Source: Roseobacter insulae
GTDB lineage: Bacteria; Pseudomonadota; Alphaproteobacteria; Rhodobacterales; Rhodobacteraceae
Direction of reading: 5' to 3'
Length of the DNA stretch: 64,000 bases
NCBI RefSeq assembly: GCF_019375555.1
Contig: NZ_JAHXDN010000001.1
Span: 1,031,501 to 1,095,500, forward strand
This document shows, in pieces, positions 8,620 through 38,793 of this stretch (positions are counted from its first letter, which is position 1; every line of letters starts with the position of its first letter). The position numbers were made by a program, and so were the translations under genes. Below the pieces are notes generated by a model. The model was given only the letters and a program-made list of their open reading frames with translations, did no database searches and was not told where the DNA came from.

Positions 8620-8639
8620 GCAAAGTGAGAAGAGAACAG

Positions 8640-20938: not shown

Positions 20939-22630
20939 CTAACGCCGGCTCGCAAGCTCCTCGAGCATCTGGTCGCGCATGATGAATTTCTGCGGCTTGC
21001 CCGTGACCGTCATCGGTAGTTCTTTTCTGAAAGAGACATGTGCGGGCACTTTGTAATGCGCGATATTGTCCCTACAGAACTGCCTGATGTCTTCAGAAGA
21101 CACGGTCGCACCATCGCGTCGTACGATCCACGCGCAGACGATCTCCCCCAATGTGTCATCTGGGATGCCAAAAACCTGCGCTTGCGCCACCCCCGGATGG
21201 GTATAGAGGAACTCTTCGATCTCGCGGGGGTAGATGTTTTCGCCACCGCGCAGGATCATGTCCTTGACCCGTCCGGTGATCGTGCAGTACCCGTTGACGT
21301 CCAGCGTGGCCAGATCGCCGGTATGCATCCAGCCGTCGGCATCGATGCTTTGTGCCGTTTGCTCCTCTTCGCCCCAGTAGCCCTTCATGACCGAATATCC
21401 ATGCGTCAGCAATTCACCCTGTGTTCCGACGGGCACAGTCTTGCCGCTGTCATCCACGATCCTGACCTCGACATGGGGATGAATGCGCCCAACTGAGGCA
21501 ACGCGTTGTTCCAGCGGATCATCGACGTTGCTTTGAAATGACACCGGCGACGTTTCGGTCATACCGTAGGCGATGGTCACGTTATGCATGTTCATCCGGG
21601 CCTGAACTTGCCGCATCACTTCGATCGGGCAGGGAGCGCCGGCCATGATCCCGGTGCGCAGGTGGGACAGGTCGTATGTGTCGAACTTCGGCAGGGCCAG
21701 TTCATTGACGAACATCGTGGGCACGCCGAAGAGCGCCGTGCAGTGCTCTGCCGACACGGCCGCGAGTGTGTCGTGCGGGTCGAAACCCTCTCCGGGCACG
21801 ACGATGGTGGCGCCCTTGGTCACGCAGCCGAGGGTGCCCATGACCATCCCGAAGCAGTGGTAAAAGGGAACCGGTATGCACAATCGGTCATTTTCCGTGA
21901 ATTCCATCGCATCGGTCACGAACCGCGCATTGTTCACGATGTTGTGGTGGGTCAGGCTGGCACCTTTCGGGCTTCCGGTAGTGCCCGAGGTGAACTGAAT
22001 ATTGATGACATCTTGAGGGTCCAGCGCTTTGCCAAGCGCATTCAGATCGGCCCGTGGTGCGGCCCGACATATCGTATCGAAGCTCAACATGCCGGGCGCG
22101 ATATCACCCCCAAGAACGACAATACTGCGCAAGTGTGGCAGGCGGTCTGCGTGCAGATCGCCGGGTGTGGCGGTTGCCAGCTCCGGTGCCAGTTCGGTCA
22201 GCATCGCCGTGTAGTCGGATGACTTGAAACGCCGTGCGGTGATCAGCGCGCTGCATCCGACCTTGTTTAGGGCAAATTCGAGTTCAGCGCGTCGGTACGC
22301 GGGGTTGATGCAGACCAGGATCGCCCCGATGCGGGCCGTCGCAAACTGTGTCAACAGCCATTCGGCCCGATTGGGGGACCAGATGCCCACGCGGTCGCCC
22401 TTGCCAATCCCGAGGTTCAGGAGCCCCTGGGCCAGCCGGTCGACTTCGCGCAGGAGGTCCGAGTATGTCCATCTGATGTTCTGAGCGCGAAAGACTGCGG
22501 CGGGATGATCTGGCAGGCGCTCGCAGGTGTGTCGCAGCAGGTCGGACACCGTGATATTCCATAGCGGCTGGGACGTCTCGCCAATCACATGGGACAGGCC
22601 GTTGCGCGGGCTGCGGTCGTGGTCGGTCAT
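20939..22630 (-). CDS. acyl-CoA synthetase (AMP-binding, FadD family)
   Basis: An adenylate-forming acyl-CoA synthetase of 563 residues. Motifs are complete: IQFTSGTTGSPKGASLTHHN (about residues 200-219), YGMTETSPVSFQS, TGDLATLDVNGYCTITGRVK, RGGENIYPREIEEFL and the C-terminal MTVTGKPQKF Lys. This arrangement is that of fatty acyl-CoA synthases for medium to long chains. It stands alone on the minus strand, 78 bases upstream of nothing transcribed with it except the RpiR gene start region behind it, so the physiological acid is not indicated by context. Confidence 0.92.
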   Translation of the reverse strand: MTDHDRSPRNGLSHVIGETSQPLWNITVSDLLRHTCERLPDHPAAVFRAQNIRWTYSDLLREVDRLAQGLLNLGIGKGDRVGIWSPNRAEWLLTQFATARIGAILVCINPAYRRAELEFALNKVGCSALITARRFKSSDYTAMLTELAPELATATPGDLHADRLPHLRSIVVLGGDIAPGMLSFDTICRAAPRADLNALGKALDPQDVINIQFTSGTTGSPKGASLTHHNIVNNARFVTDAMEFTENDRLCIPVPFYHCFGMVMGTLGCVTKGATIVVPGEGFDPHDTLAAVSAEHCTALFGVPTMFVNELALPKFDTYDLSHLRTGIMAGAPCPIEVMRQVQARMNMHNVTIAYGMTETSPVSFQSNVDDPLEQRVASVGRIHPHVEVRIVDDSGKTVPVGTQGELLTHGYSVMKGYWGEEEQTAQSIDADGWMHTGDLATLDVNGYCTITGRVKDMILRGGENIYPREIEEFLYTHPGVAQAQVFGIPDDTLGEIVCAWIVRRDGATVSSEDIRQFCRDNIAHYKVPAHVSFRKELPMTVTGKPQKFIMRDQMLEELASRR

Positions 22631-22708: not shown

Positions 22709-23581
22709 TCAGGTGAATTTCCGGAAGAGCTTGGTTTGATCGAACATATCCTCCAGCGTTTGCATCCTGTTCTTTGTGTCTTCCCAGTTCAGGTCCTGCA
22801 CCGCTGCGATCATCGTTTCGATGAGCAGCAAGGTTGTGGCTGCGGAATCCCATGCAGACGGCACGACAATCCGGCTGGAGAAGGAAATGTCTGCCAGGCG
22901 ATGCACGGGAGAGCGCCACTGATCGGTAAAAAGAATGATCCTGGCACCGCGCTGGTGGGCCATCTCCGCAAGCTTCAGTGTATTGCTCTCATACCGCCGC
23001 ACATCGAAGATCACGAAGGTGTCGCCGGGTTTCACATCGAGCAGGTAATGCGGCCATGCGTTTGACGTGGACTGGATGTGGGTAACATCCGGCCGGATCA
23101 TCTGCATGTGCAAGAAAAGATATTCCGCCATCGTGTGCGTGATGCGGCCACCGACGATGTGCAGCCGGGCAGAGGTGTCGGCCAGTTGCGCGCATGCCGC
23201 ATCGAAATCGCCGGTATCGATCTGACCCAGCGAATGACGGATGTTGTCGATCACCGCCTCGGTAAAGCGGTTGAGCATGTGACCGGAGGGCGCGCCTTCG
23301 GCCCAGGTATCGTGCTTGGCGATCGGATTCTTGACCTTTGCCTTCAGCTCTTCGCGCAGTTCTGCCTGAAATTCCGGATATCCTTTGAAGCCAAGTTTCT
23401 GCACCATGCGCGCCACGGTCGGTGTTGAAACCTCGGCGTCATTTGCAAGGGTCGAGATCGGACCAAGGCCGGAGGCCGGGTAGTTTTCGAGGATCGAATG
23501 TGCCAGCTGCCGCTCCGCGCGCGTCAGGGTTTCAAGCCGGTCCTGAATACGGTCTGCGATGGTCAGATTTGCGTCACCCAC
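22709..23581 (-). CDS. MurR/RpiR family transcriptional regulator
   Basis: A 290-residue regulator with an N-terminal helix-turn-helix of the RpiR type (ISTLANDAEVSTPTVARMVQ, about residues 42-61, followed by KLGFKGYPEFQ) and a C-terminal sugar isomerase (SIS) domain starting near residue 130 (RLHIVGGRITHTMAEYLFLH). It is divergent from the amidohydrolase-TRAP-glutamine-synthetase-like operon, and the shared 121-base region holds a palindrome, so it probably controls that operon. The ligand would be expected to be a phosphorylated or amino compound, but this is not visible. Confidence 0.9.
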   Translation of the reverse strand: MGDANLTIADRIQDRLETLTRAERQLAHSILENYPASGLGPISTLANDAEVSTPTVARMVQKLGFKGYPEFQAELREELKAKVKNPIAKHDTWAEGAPSGHMLNRFTEAVIDNIRHSLGQIDTGDFDAACAQLADTSARLHIVGGRITHTMAEYLFLHMQMIRPDVTHIQSTSNAWPHYLLDVKPGDTFVIFDVRRYESNTLKLAEMAHQRGARIILFTDQWRSPVHRLADISFSSRIVVPSAWDSAATTLLLIETMIAAVQDLNWEDTKNRMQTLEDMFDQTKLFRKFT

Positions 23582-23616
23582 GATGTACTGCCTTTGTTTT
23601 GACGGATTTTGTTACA

Positions 23617-23645
23617 GAAAGAATGTATCTGAAAAAATTCTTTCA
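23617..23645. promoter_or_regulatory. operator candidate in the RpiR divergent region
   Basis: GAAAGAAT at 23617-23624 and ATTCTTTC at 23637-23644 form an 8-base inverted repeat 12 bases apart. Inside it, TGAAAAAATTCTTTCA (23630-23645) is itself nearly palindromic, with 7 of 8 pairs. A TTGACA hexamer at 23654-23659 lies just beyond, facing the amidohydrolase gene, though no good -10 box follows. Confidence 0.4.
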
Positions 23646-23702
23646 TTATTGTGTTGACAGAATCCCGATCCGGCAAGAAGTTTGTGCCGAACGAGGGGTA
23701 AA

Positions 23703-24476
23703 TTGACGTCAAAAAGTCAGATAAACGCTGTGGTTGAACCTGCGATCGTGACCCGCGCGGATGCGGGCTCGGGTATCGTATTGGTCTGCGAGCACGCATC
23801 GAACCACTTTCCCGATGTCTACGATGGCCTGGGGTTGAGCGAAGAGGTGCGCAACAGCCATGCCGCATGGGATCCTGGTGCGCTCGGCGTCGCGGAGCGT
23901 CTTTCCGAAAAGCTCGACGCCCCGCTGATCGCGGGGGCCGTGTCGCGGTTGATCTATGACTGTAACCGCCCGCCAGATGCACCGGGTGCGATGCTTACAC
24001 GCAGCGAAGCCTATGATATCCCCGGTAATATTGGATTGAGCGCTGATGAGAAGGCGGCCCGGGTTGCGCAGATCTATGACCCTTTTCACGCAACGGTGTC
24101 GGCGGTGCTCGACAAGGCGAAGGCCCGTGTGATGATCACCGTGCATAGCTTCACGCGGGTGTATCTGGGCCAATCCCGCGCTGTTGAAATTGGTGTGTTA
24201 CACGATAGTGACGCCCGTTTGGCGGATGCCATGCTGAAGACCGCAGGTGATCACATCGCGCTGGTGACCCAACGCAATGCGCCATACGGACCCGGCGATG
24301 GCGTGATGCACACGCTCAAGAAACACGGCATCAGTCGCGGCATCCCGCATGTGATGCTTGAGGTGCGAAACGATCTGATCGAGACCCCGGAAGCCCGCGA
24401 GGGGATGGCGACACAGCTGGCTGCATGGCTTCACCATGCGCTCTCGCAACTCGGCGCGGAGCACGCGCGCATATGA
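23703..24476 (+). CDS. N-formylglutamate amidohydrolase family protein
   Basis: A zinc-type amidohydrolase of the FGase family (257 residues). Motifs are IVLVCEHASNHFPDVYDGLG, AAWDPGALGVAERLSEKL, SRLIYDCNRPP and ITVHSFTRVYLG, all typical. The start is uncertain: TTG 23703 sits 5 bases after GAGGGG, TTG 23682 and GTG 23730 are alternatives. The known reaction is N-formylglutamate to glutamate plus formate in histidine breakdown, but no hut gene is nearby. In this operon, with a gamma-glutamyl ligase homologue, an alternative is removal of a glutamyl or acyl group from a pathway intermediate. Confidence 0.87.
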   Translation: MTSKSQINAVVEPAIVTRADAGSGIVLVCEHASNHFPDVYDGLGLSEEVRNSHAAWDPGALGVAERLSEKLDAPLIAGAVSRLIYDCNRPPDAPGAMLTRSEAYDIPGNIGLSADEKAARVAQIYDPFHATVSAVLDKAKARVMITVHSFTRVYLGQSRAVEIGVLHDSDARLADAMLKTAGDHIALVTQRNAPYGPGDGVMHTLKKHGISRGIPHVMLEVRNDLIETPEAREGMATQLAAWLHHALSQLGAEHARI

Positions 24477-25051
24477 CCGGGTTGGCTGCTCGATATGTCC
24501 GTGTCGTTGACGCGGTGAATTACCGGATCGGTCGGATCATGATGTACGGCATTTTCGTGATGATGGGCATTCTGCTCTGGTCATCGATCTCGAAAACCTT
24601 CTTCCTGCCCTCGCTGTGGACACTGGAGATCGCGCAGTTCGCAATGGTGGCATATTACATCATGGGCGGGCCCTATGCCGTGCAGCTTGGCGCTAATGTG
24701 CGGATGGACCTGTTTTACGGCAATTGGACGCCGCGCAAGAAAGCGTGGTTCGATGCGTTCACCGTGCTGCTGCTGATCTTCTACCTTGGTGTTCTGCTCT
24801 ATGGCGGGTTGGCCTCCACGGCTTATTCACTGGGCTATTGGGGGCAGGAGCCGCTGGCCTATTTCGCAGGGCTGGCGACCGGCACCGAAGAGATCGGGCG
24901 GCTGGAACGATCGAGCACCGCATGGCGGCCTTACATCTGGCCCGTCAAAACCATCATGGTGGCGGGGTTTTTCCTGATGCTGCTGCAGGCGATTTCCGAG
25001 TTGATCAAGGACATTGCGACGATCCGGGAGGTCGACCTGAATGTCCTATGA
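24473..25051 (+). CDS. TRAP transporter small permease DctQ
   Basis: A 192-residue small TRAP membrane subunit. ATG 24473 overlaps the amidohydrolase stop (ATGA). Segments MYGIFVMMGILLWSSISKTF, AMVAYYIMGGPYAVQ, a VLLLIFYLGVLLYGG helix and a final IMVAGFFLMLLQAISELI helix give four membrane passes. The GANVRMDLFYGNWTPRKKAW cytoplasmic loop is as in the family. It overlaps the large permease by 11 bases. Confidence 0.88.
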   Translation: MTGLAARYVRVVDAVNYRIGRIMMYGIFVMMGILLWSSISKTFFLPSLWTLEIAQFAMVAYYIMGGPYAVQLGANVRMDLFYGNWTPRKKAWFDAFTVLLLIFYLGVLLYGGLASTAYSLGYWGQEPLAYFAGLATGTEEIGRLERSSTAWRPYIWPVKTIMVAGFFLMLLQAISELIKDIATIREVDLNVL

Positions 25052-26363
25052 AATGATCGCGATCCTGATGTTCGCGTCGATGATGCTGATGTTGATGACG
25101 GGGCAAAGGGTGTTCGGGGCCATTGGAGGCGTCGCAGCGGTTGCAGCGATCCTGCTGTGGACACCGGGTGGTGTGAACATCCCGTTTTCATCCGCGATGA
25201 AGCTGATGAAATGGTATCCGCTGCTGACCCTGCCGATGTTCATTTTCATGGGCTACGTGTTGTCGGAGAGTAAAATCGCCGATGACCTCTACCGCATGTT
25301 CCACGTCTGGATGGGGCCGGTCTCGGGCGGGCTGGCGATCGGGACCATCGGGCTGATGGTGCTGGTCTCGGCGATGAACGGGCTGAGCGTTGCGGGCATG
25401 GCCATCGGCGCGACCATCGCGCTGCCGGAACTGCTGCGGCGCGGCTATGACAAACGCATGGTGACCGGAGTCATTCAGGCGGGATCGTCCCTGGGCATTC
25501 TTGTGCCACCCTCGGTGGTGCTGGTGCTCTACGCGATGATCGCGCGACAACCGGTGGGGCAGCTCTGGCTGGCAGGTGTGCTGCCCGGTCTGATGATGGC
25601 GGCCGCTTTCATCCTCTATATCTATCTGCGGTGCAAGGCGAACCCGGCTCTGGGGCCGGTACTGCCACCAGAAGAGCGCACCGTGCCGATGCGTGAAAAG
25701 CTTCGGCTTTTGCGCGCGGGCCTGCTGCCCGTGGTGATCTTTCTGACGATGATGGTGCCCTTCGTGAACGGATGGACGTCGCTGGTGGAAAGCTCCGCAA
25801 TCGGCGCGATCACGGCGTTTCTCGCAGCGGTGCTCAAAGGACGGATGAACCGCGAGGTGTTCGAAGTCTCCGTGCGGCAGACACTGGCCATTTCCTGCAT
25901 GTTCATGTGGATCATCCTCGCGGCCCTTGGATTTGGCGCGGTCTTCGACGGGTTGGGCGCGGTGAATGCCATCGATGACCTCTTTACCGAGAAGCTCGGG
26001 CTTGACCCCTGGCTCATCCTGATCCTGATGCAGCTCAGCTTTCTGCTGATGGGTACGTTTCTGGATGATACCGCGATGCTGGTGATCGTGGCACCACTTT
26101 ATGTGCCGCTGGTCAAGGTGCTGGGGTTTGATCTGATCTGGTACGGCGTGCTTTACACCATCACGACCCAGATCGCCTATATGACGCCACCCTTCGGCTA
26201 TAACCTCTTCCTGATGCGCGCGATGGCGCCGCCTGAAATAACCCTTCGCGACATTTATGGTTCGATCCTGCCATTTGTGGCGGTCATGCTGGTGTGTCTT
26301 GCTTTGATTATGGCCTTCCCGCAGATCGCGCTGTGGCTGCCCAATTACGTTTACGGAAAATAA
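25041..26363 (+). CDS. TRAP transporter large permease DctM
   Basis: The large TRAP membrane subunit, 440 residues, starting inside the end of dctQ. Diagnostic stretches are VSAMNGLSVAGMAIGATIAL (about 105-124), GSSLGILVPPSVVLVLYAMI and, near the C terminus, IAYMTPPFGYNLFLMRAMA, plus MGTFLDDTAMLVIVAPLYVP. It belongs to the same operon as the amidohydrolase, binding protein and oxidoreductases. Confidence 0.94.
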   Translation: MSYEMIAILMFASMMLMLMTGQRVFGAIGGVAAVAAILLWTPGGVNIPFSSAMKLMKWYPLLTLPMFIFMGYVLSESKIADDLYRMFHVWMGPVSGGLAIGTIGLMVLVSAMNGLSVAGMAIGATIALPELLRRGYDKRMVTGVIQAGSSLGILVPPSVVLVLYAMIARQPVGQLWLAGVLPGLMMAAAFILYIYLRCKANPALGPVLPPEERTVPMREKLRLLRAGLLPVVIFLTMMVPFVNGWTSLVESSAIGAITAFLAAVLKGRMNREVFEVSVRQTLAISCMFMWIILAALGFGAVFDGLGAVNAIDDLFTEKLGLDPWLILILMQLSFLLMGTFLDDTAMLVIVAPLYVPLVKVLGFDLIWYGVLYTITTQIAYMTPPFGYNLFLMRAMAPPEITLRDIYGSILPFVAVMLVCLALIMAFPQIALWLPNYVYGK

Positions 26364-26369
26364 CCAAGA

Positions 26370-26384
26370 CCCCGGACGACGGGG
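26370..26384. other. stem-loop in the dctM-dctP spacer
   Basis: CCCCG-GACGA-CGGGG is a perfect 5-base GC stem between the permease stop and the binding-protein start. It could mark the 5' end of a stabilised dctP transcript; no T tract is present. Confidence 0.35.
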
Positions 26385-26410
26385 CGTCACTTTCAACAAG
26401 GAGAACCACC

Positions 26411-27445
26411 ATGACAACACGACGTAAGTTTCTCACCACCGCCGCCGCGGGTGCTGCGGCGGCACCGCTGGCGGCCCCGGCGCTGGCGCAATCCACGATC
26501 AAGTGGCGGATGCAGACCTATGCGGGTCCGGCGCTGGCAGAGCATGTGATCAAACCCGCGATTGACAGCTTCAACAAGATTGCGGGCGACCGGATGCAGA
26601 TCGAGCTGTTCTTCGCCGACCAACTGGTGCCCACGGGGGAGCTGTTCCGTGCGATGCAGAACGGCACCATCGACGCGGTGCAATCGGATGATGACTCCAT
26701 GGCCTCGCCCACAGAGGTCACCGTGTTCGGCGGCTATTTCCCCTTCGCCTCGCGCTATTCGCTGGATGTGCCGGTACTTTTCAACCAATACGGTCTGAAT
26801 GAGATCTGGGACGAAGAGTATTCCGCCGTTGGCGTGAAACACATCAGCGCCGGTGCCTGGGACCCGTGTCACTTTGCCACGAAAGATCCGATCAACAGCC
26901 TTGAAGATCTCAAGGGCAAACGCGTCTTTACCTTCCCCACCGCGGGTCGGTTCCTGACGCAATTCGGTGTCGTCCCGGTTACGCTGCCATGGGAAGACAT
27001 TGAAGTCGCCGTTCAAACCGGCGAGCTTGACGGGATCGCATGGTCGGGCATTACCGAAGACTACACCGTGGGCTGGGCCGACGTGACCAACTACTTCCTC
27101 ACCAACAATATCTCCGGGGCATGGGCGGGGTCGTTCTTTGCCAATATGGAAAGCTACAATGCGCTGCCGCCAGACCTGCAGGAATTGCTGAGGGTTTGCA
27201 TGGATCAGTCGCATTATTATCGCCAGTGGTGGTACTGGGGCGGCGAGGCCAACCTGCGGGTCAATGGCACCAAGATGCAGCTGACCTCGATTCCGGATGC
27301 CGAATGGCAGCAGGTCGAAGACGCCGCGCTGAAGTTCTGGGACGAGATCGCGGCGGAAAGCGAGACCAAGGCGAAGGTGGTCGAGATCTTCAAGCAGTAC
27401 AACGCTGATATGGTGAAGGCTGGACGCCCTTACCGTTACAGCTAA
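26411..27445 (+). CDS. TRAP transporter substrate-binding protein DctP
   Basis: A periplasmic TRAP binding protein, 344 residues. ATG 26411 follows AAGGAG. The N terminus TTRRKFLTTAAAGAAAAP with AxA at PALAQ is a Tat-type signal, so it may be exported folded. The body has IKWRMQTYAGPALAEHV and the block LKGKRVFTFPTAGRFLTQFG carrying the ligand-pairing Arg region, then a C-terminal helix. Unlike most TRAP operons the binding protein comes after the two permease genes. It closes the transport part; the enzymes follow after a strong hairpin. Confidence 0.92.
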   Translation: MTTRRKFLTTAAAGAAAAPLAAPALAQSTIKWRMQTYAGPALAEHVIKPAIDSFNKIAGDRMQIELFFADQLVPTGELFRAMQNGTIDAVQSDDDSMASPTEVTVFGGYFPFASRYSLDVPVLFNQYGLNEIWDEEYSAVGVKHISAGAWDPCHFATKDPINSLEDLKGKRVFTFPTAGRFLTQFGVVPVTLPWEDIEVAVQTGELDGIAWSGITEDYTVGWADVTNYFLTNNISGAWAGSFFANMESYNALPPDLQELLRVCMDQSHYYRQWWYWGGEANLRVNGTKMQLTSIPDAEWQQVEDAALKFWDEIAAESETKAKVVEIFKQYNADMVKAGRPYRYS

Positions 27446-27452
27446 TCTGACC

Positions 27453-27483
27453 GTCGGGGGCGGTCGTCACAGTCGCCCCCGAC
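27453..27483. terminator. stem-loop after dctP (attenuator candidate)
   Basis: GTCGGGGGCG (27453-27462) and CGCCCCCGAC (27474-27483) pair perfectly over 10 bases around an 11-base loop, 8 bases after the binding-protein stop. The next gene on the same strand starts at 27507, so it more likely trims or stabilises the transcript than ends it. There is no T tract. Confidence 0.55.
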
Positions 27484-27506
27484 CCTTACCAAAATGGATA
27501 CTTCCG

Positions 27507-28871
27507 ATGCGCGGCACCCTGAGCTTTGATCACCTGAAATCCCAAGTGTCAGACGGTACGATCGACACTGTGCTGGTCTGTGCCGTGGACATGCAGGGCC
27601 GTCTGATGGGCAAGCGGTTCCACGCGGCGAACTTCGTCGATCATTCCCATGCGGAGACGCATTGCTGCAACTATCTGCTGGCCACGGATCTTGAGATGGC
27701 CACACCGGATGGCTATGCCAGCACGTCGTGGCAATCGGGGTATGGCGATTATGTGATGCGGCCCGATCTGACCACGATCCGACCGGTCCCGTGGCTTGAG
27801 GGCACAGCAATGGTGCTGTGTGATCTGCTGGACCATCATACGCATGAACCGGTACGACATTCGCCACGTGCCGTGCTGAAAAAGCAAATCGCAAGGCTGG
27901 ACGACCTGGGGTTCACCGCGATGATGGCCACCGAGCTTGAATTCTTTCTCTTTGAGAAAAGCTTTGACGACATTCGCAAAAGCGGGTTCCGCGACCTCGC
28001 GCCGATCAGTGGTTACAACGAAGATTATCACATCCTGCAGACCACTAAGGAAGAAGCCATCATGCGCCCCTTGCGCAACCATCTCTATGCCGCCGGCATT
28101 CCGGTAGAGAATTCGAAGGGCGAGGCGGAAACCGGTCAGGAAGAGCTGAATATTCGCTATTCCGAAGCGCTGGCCTGCGCGGATCACCACACATTTGCAA
28201 AACATGCGGTCAAGGAAATTGCCTGGCAAAACGGCCGCGCCGCAAGCTTCATGCCAAAATGGAACGCCGCCAAGGTTGGCAGTTCCAGCCATGTGCACCA
28301 ATCCCTTTGGGAGGATGGCAAACCGCTGTTCTATCAGGAAGGTGCCGATTTGGGCATGTCCGATCTGATGAAACACTACATGGCCGGTCTGATCGCATTC
28401 GCGCCCGACTACGTGGCGTTTCTTGCACCTTACGTGAACAGCTATAAACGCTTCGCAAAGGGCACATTTGCACCGACGAAAACCGTCTGGTCGGTGGACA
28501 ATCGCACAGCCGGGTTCCGTCTGTGCGGTGACGGGACCAAGGGCGTGCGGGTCGAATGCCGGATCGGTGGCTCGGATCTCAACCCATATCTGGCGCAGGC
28601 CGCTATGCTCGCCGCGGGGATCAAGGGGATCGAAGACAAGATGGCGCTTGCACCGCCGACGACGGGTGACGTCTACGAAGATGATAAGGCGGCCGACATT
28701 CCACAGACGCTGCGAGCGGCCACCGAGACACTGCGACATTCCATGATGCTACGCCAGGCGATGGGCGACGACGTCATCGATCACTATACCCGCGCCGCGG
28801 AGTGGGAGCAGGAAGAATTTGACCGCGCTGTGACCGACTGGGAAATCGCGCGCAGCTTTGAGAGGGCCTGA
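27507..28871 (+). CDS. glutamine synthetase family protein (gamma-glutamyl-amine ligase type)
   Basis: A 454-residue glutamine-synthetase-fold ligase. The catalytic C-terminal domain shows ELEFFLFEKSF (first Glu ligands), NSKGEAETGQEELNIRYSEA (about 199-218), the ATP-binding MPKWNAAKVGSSSHVHQSLW and VECRIGGSDLNPYLA with the conserved Arg. Length and the missing adenylylation loop place it with PuuA/GlnA3/GlnA4-like enzymes, which join glutamate to polyamines or ethanolamine, rather than with true GlnA. It is followed 3 bases later by an aldehyde dehydrogenase and then an alcohol dehydrogenase, as expected for oxidation of a gamma-glutamylated amino alcohol. The amine is not known. Confidence 0.88.
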   Translation: MRGTLSFDHLKSQVSDGTIDTVLVCAVDMQGRLMGKRFHAANFVDHSHAETHCCNYLLATDLEMATPDGYASTSWQSGYGDYVMRPDLTTIRPVPWLEGTAMVLCDLLDHHTHEPVRHSPRAVLKKQIARLDDLGFTAMMATELEFFLFEKSFDDIRKSGFRDLAPISGYNEDYHILQTTKEEAIMRPLRNHLYAAGIPVENSKGEAETGQEELNIRYSEALACADHHTFAKHAVKEIAWQNGRAASFMPKWNAAKVGSSSHVHQSLWEDGKPLFYQEGADLGMSDLMKHYMAGLIAFAPDYVAFLAPYVNSYKRFAKGTFAPTKTVWSVDNRTAGFRLCGDGTKGVRVECRIGGSDLNPYLAQAAMLAAGIKGIEDKMALAPPTTGDVYEDDKAADIPQTLRAATETLRHSMMLRQAMGDDVIDHYTRAAEWEQEEFDRAVTDWEIARSFERA

Positions 28872-28874
28872 GCC

Positions 28875-30248
28875 ATGACCATCACCTGTCTGTCTCCGAT
28901 CGACGGCTCGGTTTATGCAACCCGGGCCACATTGAATGAATTCGAAGCGGCCGAGGCGGTTGCCAAGGCCAGGGCCGCGCAGGCGGCATGGGCCGCGCGC
29001 CCCCTGGCGGAACGGGTTGACCTGGTGCTGGCGGGCGTGGCCAACGTGGGCGCGATGAATGACGAGATCGTTCCGGAACTGGCGTGGCAGATGGGCAGGC
29101 CTGTTCGCTATGGCGGCGAATTCGGCGGGTTCAATGAACGCAGCCAGTACATGGCGGATATTGCAGGCGACGCACTTGCAGAGATCGCGCTGGAAGACAG
29201 TACCGAGTTCAAACGCGTGATCAAGCGTGTGCCGCACGGGGTGGTTCTGGTCGTTGCGCCGTGGAACTATCCTTATATGACGGCGATCAACACCGTTGCG
29301 CCAGCATTGATCGCAGGCAACACGGTCCTGTTGAAACATGCCAGCCAGACACCGTTGGTCGGTGAACGTATGGCGCGGGCATTCCATGCTGCAGGTGTGC
29401 CGCAGGACGTGTTTCAGAACGTGTTCCTGACCCATCAGGCGACCTCTGCCCTGATTGCCGACCGGGCCTTCGGATTTGTCAATTTTACCGGCTCGGTTGC
29501 CGGTGGTCGGGCCATGGAAGCCGCCGCCCAGGGCACGTTCACCGGGCTGGGGCTGGAACTGGGCGGCAAGGATCCCGGCTATGTGATGGAGGATGCTGAC
29601 CTTGATGCCGCCGTCGATACGTTGATCGATGGTGCGATGTTCAACTCCGGCCAGTGCTGCTGCGGCATCGAGCGGATCTATGTTGCCGAGAGCCTGTTCG
29701 ACGCCTTTGTGCAAAAGGCCGTGACCGTTGTTGAAGGATACAAGTTGGGCAATCCGCTGGACCCCGACACAACCCTTGGGCCCATGGCGCAGGCGCGTTT
29801 TGCAGATACTGTGCGCAGTCAGACCGCGGAGGCGGTTGCGGCGGGGGCAAAAGCACTGATCGATCCCGCGCTTTTCCCACAAGACGGCGGTGCCTACCTG
29901 ATGCCTCAAATTCTGGTGGATGTGGATCACTCCATGCGGGTCATGCGCGAAGAAAGCTTCGGGCCCGTGGTTGGCATCATGCCCGTCAAGGATGATACGG
30001 AGGCGATCCGACTGATGAATGACAGCGACTACGGGCTGACTGCATCGCTCTGGACGCAGGATGCCGCGCGGGCTGAATCCATCGGGGATGCCATCGAGAC
30101 CGGCACCGTTTTCATGAACCGCGCAGATTACCTCGACCCGGGCTTGTGCTGGACCGGGTGCAAGGATACGGGACGCGGCGGCGGGCTGTCCGTCATCGGT
30201 TATCACAACCTGACACGCCCTAAATCATACCATCTCAAGAAGGCTTGA
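28875..30248 (+). CDS. NAD(P)-dependent aldehyde dehydrogenase
   Basis: A 457-residue aldehyde dehydrogenase. It has the cofactor-binding VVAPWNYPYMTAINTVAPAL (about 119-138), the general base Glu in GLELGGKDPGYV and the nucleophile Cys in NSGQCCCGIERIYV; EESFGPVVGIMPV lies near the C terminus. All catalytic residues are present. It lies between the glutamine-synthetase-like ligase and an iron alcohol dehydrogenase, 4 bases before the latter, so it probably oxidises the aldehyde made by that enzyme. It resembles the PuuC/succinate-semialdehyde group in size. Confidence 0.94.
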   Translation: MTITCLSPIDGSVYATRATLNEFEAAEAVAKARAAQAAWAARPLAERVDLVLAGVANVGAMNDEIVPELAWQMGRPVRYGGEFGGFNERSQYMADIAGDALAEIALEDSTEFKRVIKRVPHGVVLVVAPWNYPYMTAINTVAPALIAGNTVLLKHASQTPLVGERMARAFHAAGVPQDVFQNVFLTHQATSALIADRAFGFVNFTGSVAGGRAMEAAAQGTFTGLGLELGGKDPGYVMEDADLDAAVDTLIDGAMFNSGQCCCGIERIYVAESLFDAFVQKAVTVVEGYKLGNPLDPDTTLGPMAQARFADTVRSQTAEAVAAGAKALIDPALFPQDGGAYLMPQILVDVDHSMRVMREESFGPVVGIMPVKDDTEAIRLMNDSDYGLTASLWTQDAARAESIGDAIETGTVFMNRADYLDPGLCWTGCKDTGRGGGLSVIGYHNLTRPKSYHLKKA

Positions 30249-30252
30249 CCCG

Positions 30253-31398
30253 ATGTCACTCACAGCAAACTGGTCCTATCCGACGGCAATGCGGTTCGGT
30301 GCCGGACGCATCTCGGAAATCGCTGACGCCTGCCACGCGGCAGGCATCACCAGACCATTGTTGGTCACCGATAAAGGTCTGGCCGACCTGCCGATCACAC
30401 AGAACACGCTGGACCTGCTGACCTCTGCCGGGCTGGGCCGCGCGATGTTTTGTGACGTCGATCCGAACCCGACAGAGAAGAACGCCGAAGAGGGCGTGCG
30501 CGCCTATCGCAAAGGCGGGCATGACGGCGTGGTGGCCTTCGGCGGTGGCTCTGGCCTCGATTTGGGCAAGGTTATCGCGTTCATGGCGGGGCAGACCCGG
30601 CCCTTATGGGATTTCGAGGACATCGACGACTGGTGGACACGGGCCGATGCCGCGGCCATCGCGCCCATCGTTGCTGTGCCCACCACCGCTGGCACCGGGT
30701 CCGAAGTGGGGCGCGCCAGCGTCATCACCAATTCCGAGACCCACGAGAAGAAGATCATTTTCCACCCGAAGATTCTGCCCGCCGTCGTGATCTGCGACCC
30801 CGAACTGACCGTCGGCATGCCACCGGCAATCACCGCGGGCACGGGAATGGATGCTTTTGCCCACTGCCTTGAGGCCTATTGCTCTCCGCACTACCACCCG
30901 ATGAGCCAGGGTATCGCGTTGGAGGGGATGCGACTGGTGAAAGACAACCTGTTGCTGGCCTACCAGGACGGCACCAACCTGACCGCCCGCGCACACATGA
31001 TGTCTGCGGCGGCCATGGGGGCCACGGCTTTTCAGAAGGGGCTTGGGGCTATCCACGCGTTATCACATCCCATCGGTGCGGTGCATCATACCCATCACGG
31101 GACGACGAATGCGGTTGTGATGCAGCAGGTGTTGATGTTCAACCGGCCCAAAATTCGCAAGCATCTGGCGCGCGCGGCGAATTACCTGAGTGTCTCTGGC
31201 GGATTCGACGGCTTTTATGAATTTGTCGGCGGGTTGAACGGCAAGCTGGGTATTCCCAAGAACCTTACGGAACTGGGCGTTAAAGATCCGAACATCGAGG
31301 CTCTGGTCGCCTCGGCGCTTCAGGATCCGAGCTGTGGTGGTAACCCGGTGAAAATGACCGTGAAGAATACAACCGAGCTGTTGGAAAGCTGCCTCTGA
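30253..31398 (+). CDS. iron-containing alcohol dehydrogenase
   Basis: A group III metal-dependent alcohol dehydrogenase of 381 residues. The NAD-binding GGGSGLDLGKVIAFM (about 95-109) and TTAGTGSEVGRASVITN are followed by the metal-binding residues in GMDAFAHCLEAYCSPHYHP and HALSHPIGAVHHTHHGTTNA, giving the usual Asp and three His ligands. It is last in the operon and would convert an alcohol (perhaps a gamma-glutamyl amino alcohol) to the aldehyde for the preceding dehydrogenase. It converges on the TauE/SafE gene with a 13-base gap. Confidence 0.94.
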   Translation: MSLTANWSYPTAMRFGAGRISEIADACHAAGITRPLLVTDKGLADLPITQNTLDLLTSAGLGRAMFCDVDPNPTEKNAEEGVRAYRKGGHDGVVAFGGGSGLDLGKVIAFMAGQTRPLWDFEDIDDWWTRADAAAIAPIVAVPTTAGTGSEVGRASVITNSETHEKKIIFHPKILPAVVICDPELTVGMPPAITAGTGMDAFAHCLEAYCSPHYHPMSQGIALEGMRLVKDNLLLAYQDGTNLTARAHMMSAAAMGATAFQKGLGAIHALSHPIGAVHHTHHGTTNAVVMQQVLMFNRPKIRKHLARAANYLSVSGGFDGFYEFVGGLNGKLGIPKNLTELGVKDPNIEALVASALQDPSCGGNPVKMTVKNTTELLESCL

Positions 31399-31411: not shown

Positions 31412-32161
31412 CTAGCTGTACCAGATGGCCCGGCGCAGAAGGTTCAGCCCGAGGAAGACAAAGAGTATCAGGATCGCGTTGCGGAAGGCTGCCGCCGAGA
31501 GCCGGTTCCGCAACACTTCGCCCGCGCTGAAACCCGCAATCGCAGGGATGAGCATGATCGCAGAGGCCCCGGCAAGCGGCCCGGTCAGGAATCCGAGCTG
31601 GGCATAGGCTATGCATAGCGGCAGGCTGCCGACAAAGATCAGATAGCCGGTGGCACGCACGAATTCGTCCTTGTCTACCCTTTTGGTTGCCAGATACATC
31701 GCCAGCGGCGCACCCCAGCCTGCGGTCATGCCACCCACCACGCCGGCCAAGAGTCCAAAGCCGATCTGTGCCTTGCGATCATGGTGCTCAGGCAAGGGCG
31801 GCACCAAACCACGCCAGCTGACGGCGACAAAGACGAGGATGACGACCCCCAGGACCGCAAGCAGCGCGCGGTCTCCGGTGTTCTGGGTGACAAAGGTTGT
31901 CGCGGCGACCCCGACCAGCAAGACGCCGGCAAACATCGCGTACCGGCGGGCGGTGCGTCTCAGGTGCCCGGCCCGAAAGACCTGCCAGGCGTTGGAACCG
32001 ATCATCGGAAACAACACCAGGGCAATCGCCGTGCGGGGGTCGAAGAACAGCGTCATCAATGCAATTGCGGCTGTGGGCAAGCCAATTCCGGCAACGCCCT
32101 TGATCGCCCCCGAGATCAGAAAAGCGATGGCTGCCACAAGCAGGAGTGTCGTGAATTCCAA
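31412..32161 (-). CDS. TauE/SafE family sulfite/anion exporter
   Basis: An inner-membrane permease of about 249 residues with seven or eight hydrophobic segments. The family repeat is visible: AFLISGAIKGVAGIGLPTAAIA near the N terminus (motif GxxxGxGxG-like, split here) and LAGVVGGMTAGWGAPLAMYL in the second half. The start is taken at TTG 32161 because GGGATGG precedes it; a GTG at 32194 would extend it by 11 residues. Members export sulfite, sulfoacetate or similar anions. It is convergent with the alcohol dehydrogenase operon, and a link with it is only a possibility. Confidence 0.85.
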   Translation of the reverse strand: MEFTTLLLVAAIAFLISGAIKGVAGIGLPTAAIALMTLFFDPRTAIALVLFPMIGSNAWQVFRAGHLRRTARRYAMFAGVLLVGVAATTFVTQNTGDRALLAVLGVVILVFVAVSWRGLVPPLPEHHDRKAQIGFGLLAGVVGGMTAGWGAPLAMYLATKRVDKDEFVRATGYLIFVGSLPLCIAYAQLGFLTGPLAGASAIMLIPAIAGFSAGEVLRNRLSAAAFRNAILILFVFLGLNLLRRAIWYS

Positions 32162-32324
32162 ACTAAACCATCCCGTTCCGGTCGCGCGGCGCACGAGCGC
32201 AGTTCGACTGAAACTTCGGCAAGTGTCAATTGGACGCGGCTGGCGGGTGTCTATCGGGTTGCAGTTGAAGCACCCGGATCACTGTGCAAAACTCTGCTGA
32301 ACACGACTTTTTCGGGAGCTTCTG

Positions 32325-32935: not shown

Positions 32936-34324
32936 ATGGACACATTACTTCTGTCGCGCATTCAGTTTGGTGCGAATATTTCGTTCCATATTCTGTTCCC
33001 GACGATCACCATCGCGTTGGGATGGGTGCTGCTGTTCTTCAAGTTGCGGTTCAACGCGACGGGTGAACAGAAATGGATGGACGCCTATATGTTCTGGGTG
33101 AAGGTCTTCGCGCTTTCCTTCGCGATGGGCGTGGTGTCCGGCATCACGATGTCCTTCCAGTTCGGCACCAACTGGCCCGGTTTCATGGAAACCGTCGGGA
33201 ATGTCGCCGGACCGCTGCTGGCCTACGAAGTAATCACCGCGTTCTTCCTTGAGGCGGTATTTCTGGGGATCATGCTGTTCGGCGCCTCACGCGTAAAGCC
33301 ATGGGTGCACACGCTGGCGACTTTCCTTGTGGCATTCGGAACCACGATGTCTGCCTTCTGGATCATCGTTTTGAATTCGTGGATGCACACTCCGCAGGGC
33401 TACGAATTGCGTGACGGGGTTGTTTTTGCCACCGACTGGTGGGCGATCGTTTTCAACCCGTCCATGCCGTACCGCTTTATCCATATGCTTCTGGCCTCCG
33501 GTTTGACGGTGACATTCCTGATCGCCGGGGTGTCCGCGCTGAGGCTGCTCTGGGGGGATCGCGCCGAAAACGTGAAATCCACCTTTCGGTTTGGTGTCAT
33601 TACCGCGGCAGCGCTCATCCCGCTTCAAATTCTGGCAGGCGATTTTCACGGCCTGAATACGCTTGAGCATCAGCCTGCCAAAGTGGCGGCGATGGAGGGA
33701 AACTGGGAAACGGGCCCGAATGTGCCGTTACTGCTCTTTGCGATTCCGGATCAGGCGCAGCGCGAAAACCACTTTGAAATCAGCATTCCCAACGGCGCCT
33801 CCCTGATCCTGACCCATAAGCCGGATGGCGTGGTGCCCGGTCTTAACGATTTCGTTGCCGAGGACGGCACGCTGCTGCATCCACGTGTCGCGCCCGTATT
33901 CTTCAGTTTCAGGGTGATGGTGGGCACCGGTATGGCGATGTTGCTGCTGTCCTGGGCGGGGGTCTACTACCTTCGCAGGTATGGTGCCGGCGACATGCCG
34001 CGGCTTCCGCTCTATGCCTTTACCGCGATGAGTTTCAGCGGGTGGATCGCGACACTGGCGGGATGGTACACAACCGAAATCGGTCGCCAGCCGTGGCTGG
34101 TACAGGGTCTTCTGACCACGAAGCAGGCGGTGAGCGACGTACCCTCCGGCATGGTCCTGAGCACGCTGATCGGGTACCTCGTCGTCTACGCGGTGCTGAT
34201 CGTTGCCTATATCGCCGTGATCACCTATCTGGCCCGAAAAGCGACCCGCGGTGAACTGGCGACGACACGCAATTATGCCCGCAGCGGCGAGGCCGAAGTT
34301 GCGGCACTTCATCCGGGAGAATAG
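32936..34324 (+). CDS. cydA: cytochrome bd-type ubiquinol oxidase subunit I
   Basis: Subunit I of a bd-type quinol oxidase (462 residues), the inner-membrane enzyme that reduces oxygen with ubiquinol and builds a proton gradient without pumping. The N-terminal LLLSRIQFGANISFHILFP includes the haem-ligand His, GVVSGITMSFQFGTNWPGFM the second, and EMLFG-like LEAVFLGIMLFG the Glu region. The Q loop is short, as in the CIO (cyanide-insensitive) type rather than in E. coli CydA. The start is supported by GAGGG upstream. The cydB gene follows after 2 bases. Confidence 0.94.
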   Translation: MDTLLLSRIQFGANISFHILFPTITIALGWVLLFFKLRFNATGEQKWMDAYMFWVKVFALSFAMGVVSGITMSFQFGTNWPGFMETVGNVAGPLLAYEVITAFFLEAVFLGIMLFGASRVKPWVHTLATFLVAFGTTMSAFWIIVLNSWMHTPQGYELRDGVVFATDWWAIVFNPSMPYRFIHMLLASGLTVTFLIAGVSALRLLWGDRAENVKSTFRFGVITAAALIPLQILAGDFHGLNTLEHQPAKVAAMEGNWETGPNVPLLLFAIPDQAQRENHFEISIPNGASLILTHKPDGVVPGLNDFVAEDGTLLHPRVAPVFFSFRVMVGTGMAMLLLSWAGVYYLRRYGAGDMPRLPLYAFTAMSFSGWIATLAGWYTTEIGRQPWLVQGLLTTKQAVSDVPSGMVLSTLIGYLVVYAVLIVAYIAVITYLARKATRGELATTRNYARSGEAEVAALHPGE

Positions 34325-34326
34325 CG

Positions 34327-35337
34327 ATGGAAATCTTCGGCGATCCGGCAGTCTGGCTGCCGTGGACTTTCGCAGCGCTGATGGGGCTCTCCATCCTGAT
34401 CTACGTGATCCTTGATGGGTTCGACCTTGGTGTCGGGCTCTTGATGCCCCTGGCCGACGCCCGCGAAAAGGATCGACTGGTCGCGTCTATCGGCCCTTTC
34501 TGGGACGCGAACGAGACATGGCTTGTACTGGCGATCGGTCTGTTGCTCGTGGCCTTCCCGACAGCACATGGCGTCATTCTGACGTCGCTCTACATGCCGG
34601 TTTTCATCATGCTGATCGGGCTGATCCTGCGCGGCGTCTCCTTCGAGTTTCGCGCCAAGGCGCCTCTCGCCCAGAAATCAAAGTGGAATGCCGCTTTTTT
34701 TGCCGGGTCGCTCATGGCTTCCATGAGCCAGGGTTTCATGCTTGGCATGTACATCATGGGGCTGACGTGGACGTGGAGCCATATCGCCTTTGCCCTGCTG
34801 ACAGCCGTTTTTCTGACCGTTGGATACAGCTTCATTGGTGCGGCATGGCTTATCGGCAAGACCGACGGAGTTTTGCAGGCGCGCGCAGTTGGCTGGGCAA
34901 AAGGTGGCATCTGGGGCCTGATTCTGGGGATCGTGGCGATTTCGCTGGCAACCCCTTTCGTAAGCGAGCGCATCTTCGCGAAGTGGTTCAGCTTTCCGCA
35001 ATTCTTCTACCTGTCACCGCTGCCGGTGTTGTCGGGCATTCTGGTCGGGTACATATGGTGGCAAATCCGGCGCTTGCCGCAAGAACACGACCGGCGCGCA
35101 TGGGGGCCGTTTTCAGCGGCGATGGCGCTTTTTGCGCTGGCGTTTGGCGGGATGGCCTATTCCTTCTACCCCTATGTCGTCCCGGAAAAAATAACGATCT
35201 ACGAAGCAGCCTCCGCGCCGGAAAGCCTGTTCATCATCCTGATCGGAACGCTTTTTGTCCTGCCGGCGATCTTGGGGTACAGCTGCCTTGCGTATTATAT
35301 CTTCCGCGGCAAGGCGACAGATCTGCGCTACGACTAG
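34327..35337 (+). CDS. cydB: cytochrome bd-type ubiquinol oxidase subunit II
   Basis: Subunit II of the bd oxidase, 336 residues, eight membrane segments. Family blocks are DGFDLGVGLLMP (about 32-43), the GPFWDANETWLVLAIG segment with conserved Trp/Asn/Glu, and GVSFEFRAKAPLAQKS. It starts 2 bases after cydA stops, so the two are one operon. No cydX-like small frame was seen between cydB and the convergent amidohydrolase gene. Together they give high-affinity or cyanide-resistant respiration under low oxygen. Confidence 0.94.
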   Translation: MEIFGDPAVWLPWTFAALMGLSILIYVILDGFDLGVGLLMPLADAREKDRLVASIGPFWDANETWLVLAIGLLLVAFPTAHGVILTSLYMPVFIMLIGLILRGVSFEFRAKAPLAQKSKWNAAFFAGSLMASMSQGFMLGMYIMGLTWTWSHIAFALLTAVFLTVGYSFIGAAWLIGKTDGVLQARAVGWAKGGIWGLILGIVAISLATPFVSERIFAKWFSFPQFFYLSPLPVLSGILVGYIWWQIRRLPQEHDRRAWGPFSAAMALFALAFGGMAYSFYPYVVPEKITIYEAASAPESLFIILIGTLFVLPAILGYSCLAYYIFRGKATDLRYD

Positions 35338-35357: not shown

Positions 35358-36983
35358 TCAGGTCAGGGCGCCTTGCAACCGCTCTTCACCGAAAAAGGCC
35401 GCCAGACGGGTCCACTGCGGGGTGTCAGGGCGAAGCCCAAGGTAGGTGATCGCGTTGTCGTGAAATACCGAACGAATATCCAGCCCGACGGACCGGGTGA
35501 CGTTTTCTATGCGCCCGATGTAGTTGGGGTGGGTCGGCTCGCGCGCCAGCATCGACCAGTCGGTGCCGAACATCAGGCGGTCCGGCAGGGTGGGATATTG
35601 CCGGATCAGCGTGCGCAGCCTGCGCCGGATTCGTGATGTTTCTGACGCGGGGCCGTCATATGCCGCAACCCAGTAGCCAAGATCGGAATAAAGACCATCG
35701 TTGCTGGCCACCAGTTGCGCTGTGAGCTCTTCCCAATCCGTCGGACCTCCGTTGCACGTGTCGTCTGCGCCGGTTTCGTCGAAACGTCCGAAATGCGCCA
35801 GATTAACACGCAGGTCCGGATATGCCGTCAACACTGGCTCCCAGAGGGCGGGCGAGGCATTGAGTGCAGTGCAAACGCCCGCGGCATTGGAATTGGTGGC
35901 GTGGGATTTTATCGGGACATCATGCCGTGAACACCACGTGTACAAAGCATCAAGCTCGCGGTTGATGTCAGCGCCCCGTACCTTCTTTCCGGGTTTCTCG
36001 CCAAAAATCCCGGTGTCGTCATTGTCCGTCGGTTTGTAGCCGAGCGGCGGGTAAAGTTTGACACCGGCGAACCCGCGCCGGAAAACAGCCCGTTCCAGAA
36101 GCGCAAGCGGGTTGCGGCCCCGGGCGCGTTCCAGCGCGGCGCGGATCGGGCAGAACTGCAGAAAATTCAGGACCAGCATATCATCATTCCGGCGGGCGAT
36201 TTCCGACATGACCTCAACCTGATCAGCCATGGGCGAGATCTGGTCATTGGCCCGAAACCAAAGCTCGAAATCCAGTACCGACGGCGACACCACCGCGACG
36301 TTGCCGCCGGCTTTGTAGAGCGTAACGTATTCATCCAGGATCCGGCTGCGCGGGCGTGTAAGCAGCCCAGCCCAGCGGACCGTCTGAAAGATGCGCGAAT
36401 TGCGCAGGTAGGTGTTCTGGCCGGCGCGGCGTTCATAGATCCGCTGCGCCGTGGCGAAATCCGCAGGAGCGCCGATGGACGGCGCGAGATCGGGTTGCTG
36501 GCCGTCAGGTCCGCCGAGCAATTCCAGCAGCTCCTGGTCAGGGTCGCTGCCGTCCAGCGAAGGTGCTGCGTCCCGGTTTGCAAGATCGGCGCGGAATTTG
36601 GCAAGCGCACGGGCCACCGCGGCGGCGTCACCGGCATCGGACCGGCCGGTCACTGTGGGCGCGAAATCCCCCTCAGGTGCCGTGCGCAGAAAACTCAATT
36701 CGGTCTCCGCATCGGGCGTGGCTTCTCTGAGGATGAAGACGAGCAGGCGCAACAGCGCCCCAAGAAGGCCGGGCGGTTCGATATCCGAATGCGGATCGCG
36801 CAGGAACACCTGATCCAGATAGCCCAGAACGGGTATGTCCGTGCCGTTGAAGATATGCCCGTGAATATCGATGACCGGAAAATCGAAATCCGTGGGAAGG
36901 AGCGGTCTGAAGACCGAGCATCCGCCCAGCCCGGTCGCCGCGCCCATTGCGGCGTCCCGAAGAAAAGTGCGGCGATTATACAT
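35358..36983 (-). CDS. Tat-exported lipoprotein, amidohydrolase (TIM-barrel metal hydrolase) family
   Basis: A 541-residue protein with an unusual export signal: NRRTFLRDAA twin-arginine motif at residues 3-12 and a lipobox-like LGGC at about 19-22, so it is probably a periplasmic lipoprotein sent through Tat. The mature part starts with VIDIHGHIFNGTD (the metal-binding HxH), then HDVPIKSHATNSN, LRVNLAHFGRFDE and MFGTDWSMLA near the C terminus, giving the His and Asp ligands of the amidohydrolase-2 family. An insertion of about 130 residues (90-220) separates the first two blocks. The substrate is unknown. Confidence 0.85.
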   Translation of the reverse strand: MYNRRTFLRDAAMGAATGLGGCSVFRPLLPTDFDFPVIDIHGHIFNGTDIPVLGYLDQVFLRDPHSDIEPPGLLGALLRLLVFILREATPDAETELSFLRTAPEGDFAPTVTGRSDAGDAAAVARALAKFRADLANRDAAPSLDGSDPDQELLELLGGPDGQQPDLAPSIGAPADFATAQRIYERRAGQNTYLRNSRIFQTVRWAGLLTRPRSRILDEYVTLYKAGGNVAVVSPSVLDFELWFRANDQISPMADQVEVMSEIARRNDDMLVLNFLQFCPIRAALERARGRNPLALLERAVFRRGFAGVKLYPPLGYKPTDNDDTGIFGEKPGKKVRGADINRELDALYTWCSRHDVPIKSHATNSNAAGVCTALNASPALWEPVLTAYPDLRVNLAHFGRFDETGADDTCNGGPTDWEELTAQLVASNDGLYSDLGYWVAAYDGPASETSRIRRRLRTLIRQYPTLPDRLMFGTDWSMLAREPTHPNYIGRIENVTRSVGLDIRSVFHDNAITYLGLRPDTPQWTRLAAFFGEERLQGALT

Positions 36984-37294
36984 GTGTCAAATCCCTGAAC
37001 TTCGCACTGGCTGACGACAGTCGCACCCACAGGACAAGCGATGCGCAGCGCGCGCTAAAATTGAACAAATAGAATCCACGTAACGCCAAGGTCGCATTTT
37101 TTGGGATTTTTTGGTAAGGTTTTTAAACGCCAATCCGCGGGCGGACCATTTGGGGTCGAGGTGGATCGTACGCGGCGCAGGCCGCCTGGCGCAGGTTGAT
37201 GTGCGATGGTGATTGGCCGGAAAGCGGCATTTTGGCCTCGCGAGCGTTCGTCAGCGCCCGCTTTTATTGGAACGACATTTTAGGAGGGGTATTG
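36984..37294. other. intergenic region between divergent genes
   Basis: About 310 bases between the amidohydrolase (minus) and the amidase (plus). It contains A/T-rich promoter-like sequence around 37060-37130 (including TTTTTTGG and TAAGGTTTTTAAACG). No frame with a family motif was found; the frame open from 37196 is the upstream extension of the amidase gene. No repeat or RNA structure was recognised. Confidence 0.5.
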
Positions 37295-38113: not shown

Positions 38114-38202
38114 CGGTTGGGCCAAGCGCGGGTGCCCGGATAATCCGAACCGGTCTGTCGTTTCCCCGTCGCTTTTGGTGAGCGGTCGTGCAGGGCGTCG
38201 GT

Positions 38203-38649: not shown

Positions 38650-38793
38650 GCCTGCGCAGACCAGGTGCCGGGCGCGTCGCAGTCTAGCCGGGCCACAGGA
38701 TCCGGAAACTCCGTCACATGTCTTGGAAATAAAAATTTGAAGCCAGCGTGATGCGGTGCTTAGGTGATCGCAACACGCAGGCAGGTAAAGCGC

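Follow-up and report, generated by a model that had tools for sequence, protein, structure and literature searches.

What does Roseobacter insulae take up and break down with an operon-like run of genes that joins a tripartite ATP-independent periplasmic (TRAP) importer to a glutamine-synthetase-like ligase, two dehydrogenases and an amidohydrolase? The run lies in a stretch of 64,000 nucleotides (contig NZ_JAHXDN010000001.1, positions 1,031,501 to 1,095,500), hereafter the window, in which gene calls are based on Pfam profile matches and a list of open reading frames (ORFs). A sequence-only reading of this DNA had proposed that an amino alcohol is glutamylated, oxidised and deglutamylated here, and had called the combination undescribed. 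In our analysis the run is very probably the eto operon, for glutamylation-dependent uptake and catabolism of ethanolamine, which is already described in a relative and is not new. The proposed chemistry agrees with the published one and its substrate can be named as ethanolamine, but the combination had been described: the operon of Phaeobacter sp. MED193 (MED193_10021-10056) has been named gene by gene as RpiR, GGAH, EtoV, EtoW, EtoX, ETAGA, GAADDH and GETADH (Westermann et al., 2023, PMC10132767), and in Streptomyces coelicolor, where GlnA4 makes gamma-glutamylethanolamide, a formylglutamate-amidohydrolase-family protein has been proposed for the hydrolysis of gamma-glutamylglycine (Krysenko et al., 2019, PMC6529630). 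The key inference of the earlier reading was therefore well founded, though not new. The features of the locus are as follows.

22709..23581, minus strand: RpiR/MurR-family regulator (HTH_6 and SIS; Pfam), by position the counterpart of MED193_10021
23582..23702, no strand: divergent promoter region, with a TTGACA box and an 8+8 inverted repeat
23703..24476, plus strand: FGase-family (PF05013) amidohydrolase, predicted gamma-glutamylglycine amidohydrolase (GGAH; Pfam), by position the counterpart of MED193_10026
24473..25051, plus strand: TRAP small permease DctQ (EtoV; Pfam and published MED193 operon order)
25041..26363, plus strand: TRAP large permease DctM (EtoW; Pfam and published MED193 operon order)
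26411..27445, plus strand: TRAP solute-binding protein DctP (EtoX), ethanolamine-binding by homology (Pfam and identity to 4uab/4xf5)
27507..28871, plus strand: glutamine-synthetase-like ligase, predicted gamma-glutamylethanolamide synthetase (ETAGA; identity to 5dm3 and model cut-offs)
28875..30248, plus strand: aldehyde dehydrogenase, predicted gamma-glutamyl-acetaldehyde dehydrogenase (GAADDH; Pfam), in the position of MED193_10051
30253..31398, plus strand: iron-containing alcohol dehydrogenase, predicted gamma-glutamylethanolamide dehydrogenase (GETADH; Pfam), in the position of MED193_10056

This gene set with its divergent RpiR gene, as the sequence-only reading had given it, is real: the coordinates agree with the ORFs and the Pfam matches are strong (FGase 137, DctQ 60.6, DctM 224, DctP 71.9, Gln-synt_C 332, Aldedh 386 and Fe-ADH 163 with ADH_Fe_C 139 bits; SIS and HTH_6 in the regulator). 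Adjacent genes of the seven on the plus strand overlap or lie at most about 60 bases apart, as in an operon. Inspection of the sequence places the probable start of the amidohydrolase at TTG 23703, preceded by a GAGGGG box, which gives 257 amino acids in an ORF that opens at 23682; the probable start of DctQ is ATG 24473, so that this gene overlaps the stop codon of the amidohydrolase, and that of DctP, which carries an RRKF twin-arginine-type signal, is ATG 26411.

Recurrence of the gene set among relatives was followed in the best-scoring 80 of at least 590 relatives from a genome scan, a sample that leans to close kin. All eight genes stand in this order with RpiR divergent in 58 of the 80 loci, which argues that the arrangement is not due to chance and bears out the expectation that the neighbours recur. 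The amidohydrolase shares a run with the ligase in 66 loci, RpiR is divergent to the amidohydrolase in 64, and the three TRAP genes are complete in 66; amidohydrolase and complete TRAP set occur together in 65, the amidohydrolase alone in L083, the TRAP set alone in L032, and neither in 13 (contig-end cuts included), among which L038 and L075 keep part of TRAP. The full gene set is also carried by both plasmids that were opened, out of 17 plasmid records in which a related DctP was found.

The substrate is indicated by the nearest solved structures, among them that of the binding protein. Over 318 residues, the window DctP shares 83.6% identity with the chain of 4uab and 4xf5 (629.6 bits; the next PDB match reaches 66.5 bits), which we take to be Csal_0678 of Chromohalobacter salexigens with ethanolamine or an aminopropanol. 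The window DctP has Phe aligned to the Arg of SmoM and of 4yzz, and all 69 aligned DctP proteins have Phe or Tyr there; we take the replaced residue to be the Arg-147 equivalent of ordinary TRAP proteins, which Csal_0678, an ethanolamine-binding protein, does not possess (PMC4646407). The window protein is thus related to Csal_0678/EtoX, through the presumed identity of the PDB chain, shares the loss of this Arg, and is predicted by homology to bind ethanolamine. In MED193, EtoX bound ethanolamine with a dissociation constant (Kd) of 7.9 uM, and five proteins of the operon, including the amidohydrolase MED193_10026, were more abundant on phosphorylethanolamine (PMC10132767).

The ligase points the same way, being 71.5% identical over 453 residues to 5dm3. 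We take this entry to be Csal_0679, the neighbour of Csal_0678. With 253 bits on the GlnA model TIGR00653 (cut-off 429.15), and a score also below the gln_synth_III cut-off, the window protein falls outside these families and is predicted to be a gamma-glutamylethanolamide synthetase; an enzyme that only makes glutamine is unlikely, the genome having a separate true GlnA (L084, 659.1 bits). Two further members make up the four genes of the glutamine synthetase (GS) family in this genome. They are adjacent GS-like genes on contig 15 (G000, 36042-39072; L085 and L087) beside an FAD-dependent amine-oxidase-like gene, and probably belong to a separate amine pathway, possibly another one based on gamma-glutamylation. 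The ethanolamine ammonia-lyase (Eut) route was rejected, since EutB (PF06751) had no match in the genome (the control search was positive in E. coli, 1/14).

The amidohydrolase is the member whose family name would suggest another function. On the HutG model TIGR02017 it scores 16.8 bits against a cut-off of 278.75, whereas a separate HutG beside HutH (histidine ammonia-lyase) in the same genome (L002) scores 356.3 and a third FGase-family paralogue 113.6; the window protein is 28% and 22% identical to HutG and the third paralogue, respectively. HutG identity was accordingly rejected, and strict specificity for N-formylglutamate is unlikely. In an alignment of the window protein with 53 of 64 locus proteins, the residues invariant in all 54 include H31, D57, D86, N88, R89, H148, N192 and E220. 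Six of these (H31, D86, N88, R89, N192, E220) are also common to both paralogues, which fits a retained metal site; H148 is matched there too, at a point where the three-way alignment is doubtful. The predicted model (mean predicted local distance difference test, pLDDT, 94.1) has as its nearest structure 2odf, deposited as a hypothetical protein (template modelling score, TM, 0.91; 52.8% identity by HMMER), followed by the N-formylglutamate amidohydrolase 2q7s (TM 0.69). Weaker matches to zinc (metallo-)carboxypeptidases and N-acetylmuramoyl-L-alanine amidases would fit an enzyme that cleaves off glycine bearing a free carboxylate, but nucleoside phosphorylases are also among the structural matches below E 0.001, so these distant matches are not specific. 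Because N-formylglutamate and gamma-glutamylglycine are both amides in which the amino acid keeps its carboxylate free, a swap of roles would be chemically easy, and we predict that the operon enzyme is a gamma-glutamylglycine hydrolase and not HutG.

If the window proteins act like their counterparts in relatives, which we infer for the two oxidations, for the hydrolase activity and for RpiR as regulator, the pathway would run as follows. EtoX (DctP) would bind ethanolamine in the periplasm and EtoVW (DctQM) would import it; the GS-like ligase, at the expense of ATP, would couple it to the gamma-carboxyl group of glutamate to yield gamma-glutamylethanolamide, which the iron alcohol dehydrogenase would oxidise to gamma-glutamyl-acetaldehyde and the aldehyde dehydrogenase to gamma-glutamylglycine; the FGase-family hydrolase would then release glycine and regenerate glutamate, while RpiR would sense the substrate or an intermediate and control the divergent promoter. 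Uptake of an amino alcohol, its glutamylation, oxidation by an alcohol and an aldehyde dehydrogenase, and deglutamylation by an FGase-family protein in place of PuuD, all foreseen in the sequence-only reading, are the published chemistry (PMC10132767; PMC6529630).

Several points weigh against the assignment to eto. No aldehyde dehydrogenase gene lies between ligase and alcohol dehydrogenase in 7 of the 80 loci (L030, L032, L034, L036, L043, L054, L059), and the iron alcohol dehydrogenase is missing from L017 and L026 although their stretch continues, so single dehydrogenases can drop out of the cluster. The links of 4uab, 4xf5 and 5dm3 to Csal_0678 and Csal_0679 are presumed, the database giving generic molecule names. 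The likeness to the MED193 operon, from which no difference in gene content was found, was judged by functions and order. In the article on that operon, a legend terms the pathway “predicted,” and the main text names no family for its amidohydrolase (“n-formylglutamate” occurs 0 times), so that the MED193 amidohydrolase corresponds to the window FGase by position only; the alphaproteobacterial support given there consists of ligand binding and induction, not of enzyme action on the predicted substrates (PMC10132767).

These points leave room for other explanations of the run. The best NCBIfam match of its iron alcohol dehydrogenase is a 4-hydroxybutyrate dehydrogenase (351.6 bits, below the cut-off of 500), so the enzymes do not fix the chain length of the substrate, and 4xf5 was presumably solved with an aminopropanol; both would suit a pathway of the same chemistry for a broader or different amino alcohol (e.g., 2-aminopropanol or 3-aminopropanol), with ethanolamine as just one ligand. 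We consider this very unlikely, ethanolamine being a common lipid head group and a fragment of membrane lipids. The binding of ethanolamine by MED193 EtoX and the induction on phosphorylethanolamine also speak against it, and the analogues named in the article with that binding include no other amino alcohols (PMC10132767). The FGase gene might instead be a passenger, an N-formylglutamate deformylase of histidine breakdown, with deglutamylation performed elsewhere, for example by the PuuD-like protein G000:C10:524511. Its 137 bits in the Pfam family would allow this, as would the presence of a PuuD-like protein in the genome: the operon run holds no PuuD by Pfam, as the sequence-only reading had stated, and the six PF07722 matches of the genome all lie outside the window, the best of them (198 bits) being PuuD-like, yet at 142.4 bits against a curated NCBIfam cut-off of 266. 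The gap between the operon enzyme and the copy beside HutH on the HutG model, the retention of FGase with the ligase in 66 of the 80 loci, and the rise of MED193_10026, which has the same position, on phosphorylethanolamine (PMC10132767) make the passenger explanation very improbable. The chance that the run serves a polyamine by Puu-type gamma-glutamylation is next to negligible: the ligase does match the gamma-glutamylputrescine synthetase model NF045547, but at 206.3 bits it is far under the cut-off of 650, the run has neither a PuuB-like oxidase nor PuuD by Pfam, and its importer is a TRAP system with a binding protein 83.6% identical to the 4uab chain. The Puu assignment was rejected, and uptake and catabolism of ethanolamine remains the preferred function.

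Within the eto operon itself, the slot of DctP is occupied by two forms. Form A, at least 80% identical to the window protein, accounts for 46 of the 69 proteins, and form B, 62-74% identical to it, for 23, L073 (74%) being intermediate; proteins of form A share 85.7% identity on average, those of form B 80.2%, and comparisons across the two forms average 64.7%. On a ligase tree made by a quick method and with many weak forks, the DctP form needs 12 changes, of which 5 are forced by the starred branches alone, and shuffled labels need 19.5 on average (0 of 500 as low as 12), so the form is also clustered on the tree. Comparison of A/B pairs, drawing on the window (26411-27445), L004 (8898 onwards), L024, L019, L029, L044 and L041, among others, shows the two forms to replace each other between close relatives in which RpiR, ligase and dehydrogenases are much alike. 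Between the window and L004, RpiR, ligase, aldehyde and alcohol dehydrogenase are 92, 91, 89 and 93% identical and DctP 64%; between L024 and L027 the figures are 96, 89, 95 and 94%, with DctP 65%; of the seven pairs compared, six have 83-96% identity in RpiR, ligase and dehydrogenases and one has 72-84%. DctQ and DctM also diverge in the first pair (69 and 85% identical), less so in the second (83 and 90%). The amidohydrolase is no marker of exchange, since it diverges fast in all pairs and is 58% identical even between the window and L005, both of which have form A.

With L073 set aside, forms A and B are separated at 19 DctP positions, at each of which 95% or more of the proteins of a form agree. 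The changes include H143W, W149Q, H153N, F172Y (where the Arg has been lost) and W193Y, residue 1 being the Thr that follows the initiator Met. Judged by offset from the lost Arg, several would lie near the usual TRAP pocket, a placement that relies on the numbering of SiaP; the 4uab chain, presumably Csal_0678, is of form A. With so many consistently different positions, form B may bind otherwise; we suggest, quite tentatively, that it binds another small amine or amino alcohol, or ethanolamine at another affinity, and is swapped as a cassette that retunes the same pathway. The alternation of two DctP forms in one operon slot may be a new observation, judging from a limited literature search.

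Loci that depart from the full set have varied surroundings. No FGase gene is found in 14 of the 80. Five of these (L035, L038, L049, L059, L082) sit on short contigs that break off close to the ligase; for eight of the remaining nine (all but L032), 19 selected neighbouring ORFs were scanned with Pfam for a substitute hydrolase, and none was PuuD-like or FGase-like. L030, without an FGase-family gene, has an M24 (creatinase/prolidase-type) peptidase directly 5′ of the ligase (8623-9825), and the FGase-less L043 an alpha/beta hydrolase near it. Among the loci without the aldehyde dehydrogenase, L030, L036, L043 and L054 also have neither TRAP nor amidohydrolase genes within the stretch covered; the contig of L059 is short. 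In L079 (5497-13896), a GntR/aminotransferase-type regulator, a GMC oxidoreductase and a DAO-family oxidase precede ligase and dehydrogenases instead of TRAP genes, and in L083 of Litoreibacter ascidiaceicola (8444-10011), where TRAP genes are lacking, the ligase directly follows a DeoR-family regulator and the amidohydrolase. An Amylibacter contig (L046, 4749-13895) has a PhnD-type ABC importer and HAD-family phosphatases directly before ligase and dehydrogenases. A relative of its binding protein occurs in 80 of 295 genomes, and none of 20 places examined (two of which ended at contig ends) had a GS, aldehyde dehydrogenase or alcohol dehydrogenase gene beside it, so the neighbourhood looks one-off and the idea of phosphoethanolamine import was dropped. 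This binding protein may be related to the glycerol-phosphate protein GpxB (PMC12718374).

Between the RpiR and amidohydrolase genes, the window carries the 8+8 inverted repeat GAAAGAAT/ATTCTTTC (23617-23644). A pattern search of the intergenic regions of 64 relatives found this repeat in none of them; in a palindrome listing, L004 had a 7+7 version and a few other loci had ATTCTGT/ACAGAAT-type pairs; other palindromes appeared in further loci, and many loci had none. A conserved RpiR operator was rejected on these grounds, and we claim no operator. TTGACA is present in 60 of 65 homologous intergenic regions, sequences related by descent, where 20 shuffles gave 5.1 on average, and may simply be a -35 box. 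The run is flanked on the minus strand by genes for an AMP-binding acyl-CoA ligase (20939-22630) and a TauE-family permease (31412-32194), both by Pfam; farther on (32936-35337), two adjoining membrane-protein ORFs resemble cytochrome bd-type oxidase subunits, their translations having been read by eye only.

Compared with known systems, the locus follows the logic of the Puu putrescine pathway, in which the substrate is likewise glutamylated, oxidised and deglutamylated, but Puu employs the amine oxidase PuuB and the class-I amidotransferase-fold hydrolase PuuD where the window has an iron alcohol dehydrogenase and an FGase-family protein. Chromohalobacter salexigens, which we take to be a gammaproteobacterium, unlike the host of the window, would have the closest structural relatives, given the identities of DctP (83.6%) and ligase (71.5%) to chains that we presume to come from its Csal_0678 region. 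That region is the subject of Vetting et al. (2015), cited in PMC10132767 and PMC4646407. The GlnA4 pathway of S. coelicolor (SCO1611-1615) has the same proposed four-step chemistry, including a hydrolase of the formylglutamate-amidohydrolase family, but differs in having no TRAP importer among the genes named and in its regulator, EpuRI (SCO1614) instead of RpiR (PMC6529630). With the MED193 eto operon, finally, the window shares the same eight functions in the same order and orientation and belongs with it, and it would represent one further copy of this known operon.

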